A stretch of 64,000 nucleotides of DNA from Hyphomicrobium sp. NDB2Meth4 (GTDB lineage Bacteria; Pseudomonadota; Alphaproteobacteria; Rhizobiales; Hyphomicrobiaceae). Location of the stretch: positions 672,501 through 736,500 of the forward strand of contig NZ_FPEJ01000001.1 of assembly GCF_900117445.1 (NCBI RefSeq). The letters run 5' to 3'. The translations under genes were made by a program, and so were the position numbers. Within the stretch, counting starts at the first letter, position 1. Each line of letters starts with the position of its first letter. Positions 1,916-52,266 of this stretch are shown here, piece after piece. Under the pieces are notes generated by a model. That model had not been told where the DNA came from. It made no database searches and saw only the letters and a program-made list of their open reading frames with translations.

Positions 1916-1945
1916 CTTGATTAACCATGGCCGGCAGGCAGACGT

Positions 1946-1960
1946 GATTCACGTGAAACA
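1946..1960 (+). promoter_or_regulatory. parS: parS-like ParB site 2
   Basis: Identical 15-mer GATTCACGTGAAACA. Its centre is 45 bp from site 1. TTAACCAT starts 5 nt after it, at 1966. Confidence 0.85.
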
Positions 1961-1992
1961 GATTATTAACCATAAGTTGATGCAGCAACTTT

Positions 1993-2007
1993 GATTCACG
2001 TGAAACA
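1993..2007 (+). promoter_or_regulatory. parS: parS-like ParB site 3
   Basis: Identical 15-mer GATTCACGTGAAACA. Its centre is 47 bp from site 2. TTAACCAA starts 5 nt after it, at 2013. Confidence 0.85.
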
Positions 2008-2052
2008 TTTTCTTAACCAACCGAGTCCCTTGCGGACTCCGGCTGCCAAATC

Positions 2053-2067
2053 GATTCACGTGAAACA
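2053..2067 (+). promoter_or_regulatory. parS: parS-like ParB site 4
   Basis: Identical 15-mer GATTCACGTGAAACA. Its centre is 60 bp from site 3. A degenerate TTAAAG starts 5 nt after it, at 2073. Confidence 0.85.
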
Positions 2068-2118
2068 CCTCGTTAAAGTGTCCAGGCGGTTTGATTCCCA
2101 GCCACCTGTCAACAAAAC

Positions 2119-2132
2119 GTTTCACGTGAAAC
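2119..2132 (-). promoter_or_regulatory. parS: perfect parS palindrome, site 5 (companion element in opposite orientation)
   Basis: GTTTCACGTGAAAC is a perfect 14-bp palindrome matching the canonical ParB site. Its centre is 66 bp from site 4. No TTAACC follows it on the plus strand. Read on the minus strand, a weak TTGAC lies at about the same distance, so this unit may point the other way. Confidence 0.9.
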
Positions 2133-2175
2133 TCGCCTGCAGGCCCTTGCCCTTTGCCGAGCATGCCCGGGTCGT

Positions 2176-2190
2176 GATTCACGTGAAACA
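2176..2190 (+). promoter_or_regulatory. parS: parS-like ParB site 6
   Basis: Identical 15-mer GATTCACGTGAAACA. Its centre is 57 bp from site 5. TTAACCAC starts 5 nt after it, at 2196. It is the last site before mnmG. Confidence 0.85.
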
Positions 2191-2269
2191 CTCTCTTAAC
2201 CACGATCCGGCCCTTTGATTCGGCACGCCCTCTCCAGTAGGTTCGCGGCTCAACACCCGGATTTTGCAG

Positions 2270-4141
2270 ATGTCAGACGCTAGGTTCGACGTGATCGTTG
2301 TTGGCGGCGGCCACGCCGGCTGCGAAGCCGCGGCCGCAGCCGCACGCATGGGCGCCCGCACGGCCCTCGTCACCCACTCCTTCGCCACCGTCGGCGAGAT
2401 GTCCTGCAACCCGGCCATCGGCGGCCTCGGCAAAGGCCACCTGGTGCGCGAGGTGGACGCCCTCGACGGCCTCATGGGCCGCGTCGCCGACGCTGCCGGC
2501 ATCCAGTTCCGCCTGCTCAACCGGTCCAAGGGCCCCGCCGTCCAGGGGCCACGCACCCAGGCTGACCGCAAGCTCTACCGCGCCGCCATGCAGGCCGCGA
2601 TCCGCGCCACGCCGAACCTCGAAGTCGTCGAAGGCGGCGTCGAGGACCTGATCGTGTCCAATGGGCGCGTTGGCGGCGTCGTGACGGCTGATGGCCGCCG
2701 GCTCTCCGCTGGCGCCGTGGTCCTCACAACCGGCACTTTCCTCAACGGCCTGATCCATCTGGGGGACGAAAAAATCCCCGCCGGCCGCGCTGGCGAAGCG
2801 CCGGCCCTCAAGCTGTCTGACCGCCTCTACGCCCTCGGCCTCCAGCTCGGCCGGCTCAAGACCGGCACCCCGGCCCGGCTATCGAAGGCGTCGATTGCCT
2901 GGGACAGCCTCGAGCAGCAGGCAGCCGACGATCCCCCGGTGCCCTTCTCTTTCCTGACCGACCGGATCACCACGCCCCAGGTGACCTGCGCCATCACTCG
3001 CACCACCGAGGCGGCGCACGCCATCATCCGCGCCAACCTCGGCTGTTCGGCCATGTATTCCGGGCAAATCTCATCGACCGGGCCGCGCTACTGCCCGTCG
3101 ATCGAAGACAAAGTCGTCCGCTTCGCCGGCCGCGAGACCCACCAGGTCTTTCTCGAACCCGAGGGCCTCGACGACGACACCGTCTATCCCAACGGCATCT
3201 CGACCTCGCTGCCCGCCGACGTGCAGGAAGCCTTCATCCGCACCATGCCAGGGCTGGAAAATGCCGTCATCAAGCGGCCCGGCTACGCCATCGAATATGA
3301 CTACGTCGATCCGCGCGAACTGACCCCGTGCCTTCAAGTTAGCCGCCTGCCAGGCCTGTTTCTCGCCGGTCAGATCAACGGCACCACCGGCTACGAGGAA
3401 GCCGCCGCCCAGGGCCTCGCCGCCGGCATCAACGCCGCCATCCTCGCCGGCGGCCGCGAGCCGGACTTCGTCGTCTCCCGCGCCGACGGCTACCTCGGTG
3501 TGATGATCGACGACCTCGTCACCCGCGGCGTCACCGAGCCCTACCGCATGTTCACCTCGCGGGCGGAGTACCGCCTGCGCCTGCGTGCCGACAACGCCGA
3601 CCAGAGGCTCACCCCGCTTGGTCTCGAGATCGGCTGTGTGGGCCCCGACCGGCGCGCTGCGTATGCGGAGAAAGAGAAAGCGCTATCAGCGGCTTCGGAG
3701 CTGATCTTAAAGTTATCTCTCACGCCGACGGAAGCCGGTCGCCACGGCCTCGACGTCAATCGCGATGGCCGCCGCCGCACTGCCTTTGAGCTTCTGGCCC
3801 TTCCGAACGTCGACATGGCCCGCCTCGCCGCCATCTGGCCGGAAATCGCCGCCCTGCCCCCCGCTGTCGCCGACCAGGTGGCTGTCGATGCCCACTATGC
3901 CGCCTATGTCGAGCGCCAGGAGCTGGATGTTGCCGCCCTGCGCCGGGACGAAGCCCTCGCCATTCCTCAGGGCTTTGACTATGCGGCCCTGCCCGGCCTT
4001 TCCACCGAGGTCCGCCAGAAGCTCGATAAGCACCGCCCGGCCACGATCGCTCACGCCGCCCGCATCGACGGAATCACCCCGGCCGCCCTGCTTCTCGTCC
4101 TCGCCCAGCTCAAATCAGCCCCTGCCCGGAAATCCGCCTGA
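2270..4141 (+). CDS. mnmG: tRNA uridine-5-carboxymethylaminomethylation enzyme MnmG (GidA)
   Basis: MnmG is the FAD-dependent partner of MnmE in wobble-uridine modification of tRNA. The protein opens with the dinucleotide-binding motif [10 protein letters not shown] (about residues 12-21), followed by [20 protein letters not shown]-type sequence and further family blocks such as FLNGLIHLG and [17 protein letters not shown] chose ATG 2270 (MSDARFDV) over an in-frame TTG two codons earlier because it matches the usual N-terminus. The product is 623 residues, normal for the family. The stop overlaps the rsmG start by one base, so mnmG, rsmG and parA are probably co-transcribed. Confidence 0.96.
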
Positions 4142-4811
4142 TGGGCGCAGTCCCTGCCGCGAAAATCGATTCGCCCGCTGATTTTGCTCGCGTTTTCGGC
4201 GTTTCACGTGAAACGACTGAGAAACTTTCCGCCTACGAGACCCTGCTTCGCCAGTGGCAGAAAACGATAAATCTCGTGGCCCCGAGCACCCTGGCCGACA
4301 TCTGGCACCGCCATTTCGCCGATTCGGCCCAGCTCCTCGCTCTGGCGCCGCCCGAAGCTCGAAATTGGCTCGATCTGGGCTCCGGCGCCGGCTTTCCGGG
4401 CCTCGTTTTGGGGATTCTCCTCGCAGACCGGGAAGGGGCTAAGATGACTTTGGTCGAAAGCGACACCCGCAAGGCCGCCTTTCTCCGCGAAGTCGCCCGT
4501 CGCACTGGAGCAGCTGTGGACATCCAACCCGAGCGAATCGAAAAAGTTGCGACTCAAACTAAGCTTGGCGGCGTCGACGTGATCACCGCACGCGCGTTGG
4601 CGCCCTTGCCGCGTCTGCTTGAATTGGCGGCTCCGGCCTTCTCGGCTCATACAACTGGGCTGTTTTTGAAGGGTCGCGAAGCCGAGACGGAAGTTGATGC
4701 GGCCAGGGAGCGGTGGGCGTTCGAAAGTGCGCTGCAGCCCAGCCTGACAGATGCCGGTGCTCGAATCGTCGTAGTCCGGGCGCTGCAGGCTAAGCAGGAG
4801 GGTCAACGGCG

Positions 4812-4815
<4 letters not shown>
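4141..4815 (+). CDS. rsmG: 16S rRNA (guanine527-N7)-methyltransferase RsmG (GidB)
   Basis: RsmG uses S-adenosylmethionine to methylate N7 of G527 in 16S rRNA. The 224-residue protein has the family's LDLGSGAGFPGL SAM-binding loop (about residues 78-89) and downstream blocks VESDTRKAAFLREV and ITARALAPL. The N-terminal FGVSRETTEKL stretch is typical of the family, and here the VSRET codons spell a perfect parS palindrome. The gene begins one base inside the mnmG stop and its own stop overlaps the parA start (ATGA), which points to translational coupling. Confidence 0.95.
4201..4214. promoter_or_regulatory. parS: parS site 7, inside rsmG coding sequence
   Basis: GTTTCACGTGAAAC is a perfect 14-bp palindrome identical to site 5. 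It lies in frame within rsmG and encodes Val-Ser-Arg-Glu-Thr. It is about 0.6 kb upstream of parA and about 2.0 kb from array site 6. No TTAACC companion element is present on either side. Confidence 0.9.
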
Positions 4816-5636
<821 letters not shown>

Positions 5637-5659: not shown

Positions 5660-6538
5660 ATGAACGCACCAATGCAGAAGAGCCGCCTCGGACGCGGTCT
5701 TGCCTCGCTCATCGGGGAGCCGATGCAGCCCGGGCGCGTGCATCTTCCGCCCGAGGGCGAGCAGCGCATGGTGCCGACGGCGGAAGTCCGCCCCAGCAAG
5801 CTCAATCCGCGCAAGGAGTTTCGCAACGAGGACCTAACGGAGCTCGCTGATTCGATTCGCTCCAAGGGCCTCGTCCAGCCGATCATCGTGCGCCCCTCGC
5901 CAGACGGCAACGGCTACGAAATCGTCGCCGGCGAACGCCGCTGGCGCGCCGCTCAGCTCGCTGGCATTCACACCGTTCCCGTGATCGCTCGCGACCTCGA
6001 CGACCGCGAGGTGCTCGAGCTTGCCATCATCGAGAACGTGCAGCGCGCCGACCTCAACGCCATCGAGGAAGCCGCCGGCTATCGTGAGCTGGTCGAGCGA
6101 TTCGATTACAGCCAGGAGCAGCTTTCTGAGATCATCGGCAAATCGCGCAGCCACGTCGCCAACACGCTGCGCCTTTTGAAGCTGCCCGATGGTGTCCAGA
6201 CCATGGTGCAGGACGGCCGCCTCACCGCCGGCCACGCCCGCGCTCTGATTGGGCGCGACGACGCCGACCAGCTGGCTCAGCGCATCATTGACCAGGCTCT
6301 CAACGTGCGCGAAGTCGAAGCCCTGGTCCAAAGCGGCGATGTCATTCCGCCGGCGATGCCCGTGCCCCGCATTCCGCGCGAAAAAGACCCGGACACCAAA
6401 GCCTTCGAGAAGGATCTGTCGAACATTCTCGGCCTCAAAGTCGAGATCAAGCGCGGCTCGGGCGAGAGCGGAAACCTCGTCATCAAGTTCGGCAACTTCG
6501 ATCAGCTCGACTACATCCGCCAGCGCCTCGGCGGCTGA
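5660..6538 (+). CDS. parB: chromosome partitioning protein ParB (Spo0J)
   Basis: ParB is the parS-binding CTPase that spreads on DNA around the origin and recruits ParA. The 292-residue protein has the N-terminal ParB/Srx domain with the GERRWRAAQLAG box, which binds CTP in this family, and the LAIIENVQRADLNAIEEA block. A helix-turn-helix segment (SQEQLSEIIGKSRSHVANTL) and a C-terminal dimerisation region ending YIRQRLGG follow. An AGAGGAACC ribosome site precedes ATG 5660. Seven good parS sites lie within 4 kb upstream, which fits its role. Confidence 0.96.
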   Translation: MNAPMQKSRLGRGLASLIGEPMQPGRVHLPPEGEQRMVPTAEVRPSKLNPRKEFRNEDLTELADSIRSKGLVQPIIVRPSPDGNGYEIVAGERRWRAAQLAGIHTVPVIARDLDDREVLELAIIENVQRADLNAIEEAAGYRELVERFDYSQEQLSEIIGKSRSHVANTLRLLKLPDGVQTMVQDGRLTAGHARALIGRDDADQLAQRIIDQALNVREVEALVQSGDVIPPAMPVPRIPREKDPDTKAFEKDLSNILGLKVEIKRGSGESGNLVIKFGNFDQLDYIRQRLGG

Positions 6539-51000: not shown

Positions 51001-52266
51001 CTAGACCCGCTCGCCTTTGAGTAGGCGCGGCAGCTCTCCAGTAAGGCCTGCCGCCTCAGCGACGAAGAAGCGCTTTAGTGCCGGAACGCGATCGACGATG
51101 CCGAGCCCTGCTTCGCGCACCGAGCGCAGCAGCGTCACGTCGTTGCCGAACAGCCGATTGATCGCATCGAATGTGCCGGCCGAGATCGCCGAGTCGAAAC
51201 GGCGCCAGCGCTCATAGCGCTTCAGGCCTTCCGCGTTGCCGGCCCCAAATCCGCACCGCACGCTCTCCGCCACCGTCTCCGTCAGCGCCGCGACGTCGCG
51301 CAAAGCCAGGTTGAGCCCCTGGCCGGCAATCGGATGCACGCCATGCGCCGCATCGCCCACCAGGGCAAATCGGGGACCCACGTAGCGACGTGCTAGGTGA
51401 AGCTCCAGCGGCCACGACTGCCGCGGTCCGGCCAAACTCACACGCCCGAGCTTGCCGCCGAAACGCTTCTCCACCTCGGCGAGAAAGCCGGCATCGTCGA
51501 GTGCCATGATGCGCTTTGCTTCACGTGAATCCTCGGTCCACGTAATGCACGACCGGTTGCCGGTAAGCGGCAGGATGGCGAACGGCCCGTTGGGAAGAAA
51601 GTGCTGCACCGCGCGCGCACCGTGCGGCCGGTCGTGCTGCACGGTGGTGACGATGCCCGTCTGCGGATAGCTCCAGCCGATCACCTTGATGCCGGCAGCC
51701 TCGCGCAGCGCTGAGCGGCGTCCGTCGGCGGCAACGACCAGCGACGCCGTCACCTCGCGTCCGTCGGCAAGCGTAAGCTGCGCCCCGGCCTCCTCGGCGA
51801 CAAACCCTTTTGCCTCCGCGGGCGCCAGCAGTGTTATCCCGCTCCGCGCCGCAGCTGCGCTGCGTAAAGCCCGCCACAGGGGCTCAACCGGCAGAATATG
51901 CGTTGCTGCTTCGCCGGCTTCAGTCGTGTTGTCGTAGGCGAGCAGCACCGGCCGCACGCCGGCTTCCAGAGCTGAATCGGTGATGTCGATGCCATCGACC
52001 GGCTGCGCGTCGACGGCAACCTGCTCCCACACCCCGATCGCCTCCAGCAAATGGCGCGAGGCGGCCGACAGCGCGAACGCCCTCGCGTCCGGGCGAGGCT
52101 CAGCCGTCGCCACGCGATCGATGATGGCGATTCTGAATTCAGGCCCGAGCGCATCGGTGAGGGCGCATGCGAGCGCTAGGCCGGCGAAGCTCGCACCTGA
52201 AATTGCGACATCGAAGCTGAGGGCCTGTTTCGCCCCGTCTTGCTGCGCCGTGTCTCGTTGCGCCAT
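51001..52266 (-). CDS. UbiH/UbiF/Coq6-family FAD-dependent hydroxylase
   Basis: Members of this family add hydroxyl groups to the ring of ubiquinone precursors. The 421-residue protein has an N-terminal FAD motif (VAISGASFAGLALACAL, residues about 20-36), the DG motif LVVAADGRRSALRE, and the second FAD motif GDAAHGVHPIAGQGLNLALRD (GD box). Which ring carbon is oxidised cannot be assigned. A parS-like 15-mer lies within the coding sequence at 51517. It is divergent from tesB. Confidence 0.9.
   Translation of the reverse strand: MAQRDTAQQDGAKQALSFDVAISGASFAGLALACALTDALGPEFRIAIIDRVATAEPRPDARAFALSAASRHLLEAIGVWEQVAVDAQPVDGIDITDSALEAGVRPVLLAYDNTTEAGEAATHILPVEPLWRALRSAAAARSGITLLAPAEAKGFVAEEAGAQLTLADGREVTASLVVAADGRRSALREAAGIKVIGWSYPQTGIVTTVQHDRPHGARAVQHFLPNGPFAILPLTGNRSCITWTEDSREAKRIMALDDAGFLAEVEKRFGGKLGRVSLAGPRQSWPLELHLARRYVGPRFALVGDAAHGVHPIAGQGLNLALRDVAALTETVAESVRCGFGAGNAEGLKRYERWRRFDSAISAGTFDAINRLFGNDVTLLRSVREAGLGIVDRVPALKRFFVAEAAGLTGELPRLLKGERV
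51517..51531 (-). promoter_or_regulatory. solitary parS-like site in the ubiH-type gene
   Basis: On the minus strand this reads GATTCACGTGAAGCA, one base different from the 15-mer in the array at 1.9-2.2 kb, including the same departure from the canonical palindrome. It is in frame and codes for Asp-Ser-Arg-Glu-Ala. No TTAACC element follows. Confidence 0.4.

Follow-up and report, generated by a model that had tools for sequence, protein, structure and literature searches.

A parS-like array with a phased TTAACC box and a single GATTC arm between mnmE and mnmG in Hyphomicrobium

Chromosomal ParABS systems such as those of Caulobacter and Hyphomonas are built around the parS sequence TGTTTCACGTGAAACA, which was the site used in EMSA for Hyphomonas (PMC6650430). 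A second cell-cycle DNA-binding protein has been reported within parS itself, since the Caulobacter site contains a DnaA site linked to partitioning control, which is one reported link between the timing of centromere assembly and replication (review, PMC4468827). The Caulobacter origin (Cori) has CtrA sites near or overlapping DnaA boxes (PMC4468827), and in repABC partition regions GANTC sites and a CtrA-like site are described around parS or the repABC promoter (PMC9040568, PMC11514494).

We analyzed a 64-kb stretch of a 4.08-Mb Hyphomicrobium genome (the window), in which the gap between mnmE and mnmG resembles these systems in several respects. It shares with the chromosomal ParABS systems the same core, the linkage to parA and parB and a three-domain ParB, but differs from those with TGTTTCACGTGAAACA in that five of its six sites lack symmetry, having one GATTC arm and a second box at a fixed spacing. 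Compared with the DnaA-bearing parS of Caulobacter, the gap differs in its recurring TTAACC, spaced constantly from five sites and lacking the TTATNCACA consensus. The arrangement would resemble that at Cori, with ParB at the centromere as the partner. In the repABC regions the sites lie near parS or in promoters, whereas in this gap one parS arm itself contains GANTC and TTAACC keeps a fixed phase with parS.

The parS-like array and its surroundings

The 379-bp gap contains six TTCACGTGAA cores and is followed on its 3' side by mnmG, rsmG, parA and parB, so that, with cores near both partition genes, the locus falls among chromosomal ParABS systems. The closest solved relative of the encoded ParB is 6t1f, a ParB (E 4e-68) that we take to be the Caulobacter protein. 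The gap is best explained as a chromosomal, centromere-like cluster for ParB loading, directly 5' of the parA/parB operon. Features of the locus are as follows, with genes assigned by the Pfam domains named and the other features read from the sequence:

559–1890, + strand: mnmE (trmE), 5' of the array (MnmE_helical and TrmE_N)
1901–1915, + strand: parS-like site 1, whose GATTC (1901–1905) is a GANTC site
1921–1926, + strand: TTAACC box of site 1, reading TTAACCAT, 5 nt 3' of parS
1946–1960, + strand: parS-like site 2, with GATTC arm
1966–1971, + strand: TTAACC box of site 2, reading TTAACCAT
1993–2007, + strand: parS-like site 3, with GATTC arm
2013–2018, + strand: TTAACC box of site 3
2023–2039, no strand: GAGTCC-N5-GGACTC inverted repeat, hairpin-like, between sites 3 and 4, with two more GANTC sites
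2053–2067, + strand: parS-like site 4, with GATTC arm
2073–2078, + strand: TTAAAG, degenerate box of site 4
2119–2133, + strand: parS-like site 5, GTTTCACGTGAAACT, symmetric GTTTCACGTGAAAC, without TTAA box or GATTC arm
2176–2190, + strand: parS-like site 6, with GATTC arm, promoter-proximal
2196–2201, + strand: TTAACC box of site 6
2215–2243, + strand: putative promoter of the mnmG operon, identified by eye from four genus-mate sequences
2270–4141, + strand: mnmG (gidA; GIDA)
4141–4815, + strand: rsmG (gidB; GidB)
4201–4215, + strand: symmetric parS-like core within the start of rsmG, without TTAACC box
4812–5636, + strand: parA (AAA_31 and CbiA)
5660–6538, + strand: parB (ParB_N, HTH_ParB and ParB_C)

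Sites 1, 2, 3, 4 and 6 are exact copies of GATTCACGTGAAACA, all on the + strand. A preliminary description of this DNA had noted five same-facing copies, each followed by five variable bases and then by TTAACC (four copies) or TTAAAG (one), which is exact: the spacers read, in order, CTTGA, GATTA, TTTTC, CCTCG and CTCTC, and the boxes TTAACC, TTAACC, TTAACC, TTAAAG and TTAACC. Sites 1 and 2 do read TTAACCAT, as it claimed, and its view of the repeat as an asymmetric composite holds as well, with TTAACC and the 5-nt spacing kept in scrambled surroundings. On the sequence, however, much of the site asymmetry is the GATTC (GANTC) arm, which that description had overlooked and which is far more widespread than the box.

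The 16-bp palindrome TGTTTCACGTGAAACA is absent from the gap, where five of six sites carry one GATTC arm and the sixth, GTTTCACGTGAAAC, has non-palindromic outer bases. This deviation makes a canonical parS less likely but not a site that works as parS. In Hyphomonas, a two-base change in one parS arm abolished ParB binding in vitro (PMC6650430), so the arm change here, adjacent to those bases, may not be silent. As for marks of an origin, the 64-kb window contains no TTATNCACA and no turn of cumulative GC skew.

The putative promoter consists of TTGATT (2215–2220), a 17-bp spacer and TAGGTT (2238–2243), and its TTGATT overlaps a GATTC at 2217–2221. A similar TTGATT-17-TAGGTT lies 3' of the promoter-proximal composite in the window genome (G000) and in the genus-mates G001, G002 and G005 (TAGTTT in G002), and G001, G002 and G005 each have a composite like site 6 at a similar distance from mnmG. 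The gap between parS and box is 5 nt in all four genomes, while the distance from the box to the TTTGATT promoter block is 12 nt in three and 11 nt in one. Because the distance to the promoter varies slightly and that to parS is constant, a register of TTAACC with parS is slightly favored. Reading of the same four sequences disfavors TTAACC as a −35 element.

Spread of the box and of the GATTC arm

We fetched mnmG regions for 90 loci from 89 other genomes of the family, giving 91 loci from 90 genomes with the window; G098 contributes two mnmG copies, and a second copy of G014 lies outside the set. Twelve of 102 family genomes without an mnmG match at E 1e-60 were left out, and two loci on contigs starting inside mnmG (L093 and L095) were dropped, leaving 89 loci with upstream sequence, window included. 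At least one core was present within 700 bp of mnmG in 73 of these, and the composite (a box at the same offset that departs from TTAACC by one base at most) in 11 of the 73. Upstream of mnmG, 13 of 17 pairs of a core and an exact TTAACC within 40 nt had the box at offset +8 from the core end, and the 17 boxes at +8 within one mismatch comprised 13 TTAACC, 3 TTTACC and 1 TTAAAC. Bare TTAA at +8 gave 15 matches from four genera upstream of mnmG, compared to roughly 0.3 expected per offset, and the next-best offset gave four matches from a single genus (131 cores, one of them spurious).

On a FastTree phylogeny of 84 MnmG proteins, the composite was found in every member of one six-genome clade (local support 99), namely G000, G001, G002, G004, G005 and G007, with the box reading TTTACC in G004 and G007. 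It was absent from the sister genus-mates G003 and G006 and recurred in G040, G041, G043, G081 and G095, which amounts to at least five changes in all on the MnmG tree; its orientation relative to mnmG is reversed in G040 and G041. A single symmetric parS lies upstream of mnmG in each of four clade members (G001, G002, G004 and G007), and G000 and G005 have arrays with GATTC arms. Within the genus, the parS-N5-box unit probably came first, followed by the GATTC arm and multiplication of the site in the ancestor of G000 and G005.

The co-conservation of TTAACC and its spacing that the preliminary description proposed looking for in relatives was borne out in part. The unit is kept throughout the composite clade, and in G000 and G005 it persists amid flanks scrambled between copies, but 62 of 73 family loci keep the core without the box even when one mismatch is allowed, and the genus-mates G003 and G006 lack it. 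Across 397 genomes of the order, 16 matches in 11 genomes showed no preference for 5 nt. Gaps in the 12 that lie outside G000 were 3, 3, 4, 4, 7, 7, 7, 9, 14, 21, 21 and 27 nt, and with none of them at 5 nt an order-wide 5-nt composite was rejected. Genome-wide in the family, bare TTAA at +8 was not significant at the genus level (five genera, P 0.57). The exact composite occurred at 19 loci in a collection of named genomes, one being G005 with four sites; of the other 18, only L104 (a Xanthobacteraceae metagenome-assembled genome) has it in the mnmE–mnmG gap, and the rest (Rhizobium, Ciceribacter, Bosea, Roseibium and others) fall into a few look-alike contexts and may be chance. The composite looks conserved for function in its lineage, yet is lineage-restricted.

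Other members of the family have different sequences beside parS. G012, from another genus, contains scattered modules of about 44 bp with two cores around TTAACCA, arranged as parS-(A)RA-TTAACCA-N5-YTGATG-parS (L100 1776–1819, L101 1970–2013, L102 1730–1773, L126 1630 and L127 1559); three have both cores intact and two have one mutated, and the module represents a second geometry of TTAACC and parS. In G014, inverted arms resembling TTGAACGC and GCGTTCAA enclose the cores and form an extended palindrome around parS (L044 8613, L131 1701 and L134 1544; partly at L044 8677, L132 1531 and L133 1503). In the genus g7 (L028, L029, L033, L034, L035, L040 and L042, but not L045), TTGAC lies 4 or 5 nt before the mnmG-proximal one-GA parS, on the strand that reads GATTC first, and is either another lineage-specific neighbor box or a promoter element.

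All five composite sites start with GATTC, a GANTC (CcrM) site, and the genome encodes a candidate methylase, with RAMA over the cut-off in one ORF together with N6_N4_Mtase; the array thus has the features of a GANTC target. Exactly one GATTC arm was found in 132 of 280 cores across the 91 family loci, and both arms in none. Among the 107 cores within 450 bp of mnmG there were 59 with one GATTC and no doubles, whereas independent arms would give about 8 doubles (P ~2e-4, kinship ignored). The bases next to the core in 260 arms (130 cores within 700 bp) were GT in 167, GA in 64, AT in 16, TT in 11, GC in 2 and GG in 0. When the 59 one-GA sites are turned alike, the opposite arm hardly varies (AAACA in 54 or more). 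The core at the rsmG start is symmetric, with GT in both arms, in 52 of 59 loci, as expected where the core also encodes protein.

The double-GATTC form GATTCACGTGAATC was present in only 1 of 397 genomes of the order. Counted per genome, with group sizes tallied by hand, GATTCACGTGAAACA was found in half of the order's sampled genomes (23 of 46, the window's included) and in 3 of 263 genomes from other classes. None of 89 other Alphaproteobacteria had it, though 73 of these carry some GNTTCACGTGAAACA site. The one-GATTC-arm parS therefore appears to be mainly a trait of Hyphomicrobiales. Most Alphaproteobacteria carry CcrM; since those outside the order lack GATTCACGTGAAACA, CcrM alone does not produce the GATTC arm, which may reflect what ParB tolerates rather than methylation. 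With parS masked, the 250 bp upstream of mnmG contained 143 GANTC in 20,990 nt, about twice the base-shuffle expectation of 73, and GANTC was depleted in mnmG (62 versus 167 expected in 53,398 nt; 170 versus 356 expected in 106,613 nt). A lone GATTCACGTGAAGCA, also with a GATTC arm, lies far from the array at 51517–51531 of the window, on the − strand. In the literature searched, the strings GATTCACGTGAAAC and TTTCACGTGAATC occurred in no paper text (figures and supplements fell outside the search), and titles and abstract openings held no description of parS with GANTC or CcrM. The single GANTC arm of Hyphomicrobiales parS is thus a more general feature than the box, and no earlier description was found in the literature searched.

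Readings of the TTAACC box

TTAACC occurs 130 times on the + strand of the 4.08-Mb genome, and four of five boxes at one fixed offset have a naive probability of ~5e-18, duplication ignored. On both strands of the whole genome it occurs at 264 places, compared to 897 for its reversed letters; avoidance of a regulatory word or of TTAA alone would both fit this roughly 3.4-fold rarity.

Published CtrA motifs comprise TTAA-N7-TTAA, ungapped TTAACCAT and the half-site TTAA (PMC6180460), and the motif reported for budding Hyphomonas is TTAA-N7-TTAAC (PMC7200025). The match of sites 1 and 2 to a CtrA half-site, claimed in the preliminary description, agrees with these motifs, with TTAACC in four of five boxes and TTAACCAT in two of five. 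The genome also encodes a CtrA orthologue (89% identity over residues 1–225 of the 226 in the query, a Caulobacter CtrA; E 5.6e-134), whose gene has TTAACC 96 bp upstream on the same strand. Taken across parS and the box, GAAA-N7-TTAAC is present in eight of the nine copies in G000 and G005, the ninth ending in TTAAA, but GAAA matches TTAA at only two of four bases and about one spacing in 11 would place it in CtrA register by luck. The full motif TTAA-N7-TTAAC has 10 matches at 7 places in the genome compared to 5 matches for a reversed control, so its use here is not independently validated. ORFs that start no more than 35 bp past such places encode a LysM/M23 peptidase, an aminotransferase and a CAP-domain protein; an outer-membrane barrel ORF begins 75 bp beyond another place, and a further one is just 3' of a TolB ORF. 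As support for CtrA use these neighbors are weak at best. The main text of the Hyphomonas CtrA paper (PMC7200025) contains no occurrence of ParB, parS or mnmG. Overall, CtrA is the best candidate for a partner that would bind the TTAACC box, rather than a demonstrated one.

Could the box have arrived with parS simply by copying? If one parS-N5-TTAACC unit had been duplicated and TTAACC were functionless, the five copies should face the same way, which they do, as do the one-GA sites in 20 of the 22 family loci that have at least two. However, copies in the window array agree pairwise at 100% of parS positions and 87% of box positions, against 34% for the spacer, 25.5% for the 20 bases 5' of parS and 24.6% for a 13-base stretch that starts one base past the box; the closest array-bearing relative, G005, has 100, 100, 53, 27 and 24% for these segments. 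Because parS and box are kept but flanks and spacer agree no better, or hardly better, than random sequence, duplication alone is insufficient, and G001 and G002, with single copies, retain the 5-nt spacing; a passive history of this kind is most improbable. What is kept is parS, the box and their distance, with everything around them lost or never shared, and we infer selection on the box for a function. This function could instead be transcriptional, with the boxes as operators of the mnmG-rsmG-parA-parB operon rather than regulators of a centromere, and site 6 does have a putative promoter, similar in four genomes, directly 3' of it. The TTAACC of site 6 nevertheless stops 13 nt short of the putative −35 hexamer, whereas Caulobacter CtrA sites are reported to act at −35 or −10 (PMC6180460), four further boxes are up to 275 bp farther upstream and it is the distance to parS, not to the promoter, that is constant in the four genomes. 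We consider operators improbable.

A protein other than CtrA deserves more weight, although we still regard it as somewhat unlikely: TTAACC might be the site of a nucleoid protein or an unknown repressor, or an extension of what ParB recognizes, and its likeness to CtrA sites accidental. Past TTAACC, the boxes share little but an A at position 7 (11 of 14), too short a motif to name a protein; all 14 were picked for TTAA at +8, so constant TTAA there proves nothing. The G012 modules and the TTGAACGC/GCGTTCAA arms of G014 do indicate that other family members add other boxes to parS. On the other side, the box fits the published CtrA motifs (PMC6180460, PMC7200025), and the symmetric cores of the same locus (at 2119 and 4201) have no box, which counts against a part in ParB recognition. 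The DnaA site within Caulobacter parS (PMC4468827) provides a precedent for another reading, in which TTAACC is a variant DnaA box beside parS and TTAACCAC the sequence that DnaA would bind. It is very improbable for the present boxes. The DnaA box consensus is TTATCCACA or TTATNCACA. Six of the 14 boxes, chosen as they were for TTAA at +8, match TTATCCACA at seven of nine positions, but the mean match is 6.1 of 9, positions 8 and 9 vary, TTATCC is absent among the 17 boxes at +8 that differ from TTAACC at no more than one base, and TTATNCACA was found on neither strand of the 64-kb window.

A working model and its significance

With CtrA as the candidate partner, it is quite possible, if short of probable, that five of the six parS sites are composites with two cell-cycle inputs, a CtrA half-site on the right and a CcrM site on the left; such composites may tie chromosome segregation to the cell cycle. 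TTAACC would be a CtrA half-site at the one spacing that places the GAAA of the right arm N7 before TTAAC, and the right parS arm would double as a degenerate second half of a CtrA box (TTAA-N7-TTAAC), with the left arm, GATTC, as a CcrM methylation site. ParB would nucleate on the composite sites. In non-replicating cells, phosphorylated CtrA on TTAACC and the right arm would compete with, position or hold back ParB, and loss of CtrA at S-phase entry would free the sites. After passage of the fork, the GATTC arm would be hemimethylated, and CcrM methylation may tune ParB affinity on newly copied DNA. Competition between CtrA and ParB at the composites, and a role for methylation, would both follow from this model.

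A bolder form, which we regard as distinctly unlikely, is a centromere gated both epigenetically and by phospho-relay, with exactly one CcrM site per composite parS, in one of its ParB arms, and a lineage-specific CtrA half-site that excludes joint occupancy of the right arm by CtrA and ParB. ParB loading would then read both replication status, through hemimethylated versus fully methylated DNA, and cell type (CtrA~P), under a one-GANTC-arm rule holding across much of Hyphomicrobiales to which lineage-specific boxes were added.

If true, CtrA-like and CcrM sites inside ParB sites would open the timing of centromere assembly to tests with oligonucleotides and point mutations. The question extends past Hyphomicrobium, since loci titled Rhizobium, Agrobacterium, Bosea and Roseibium have one-GATTC-arm sites too.
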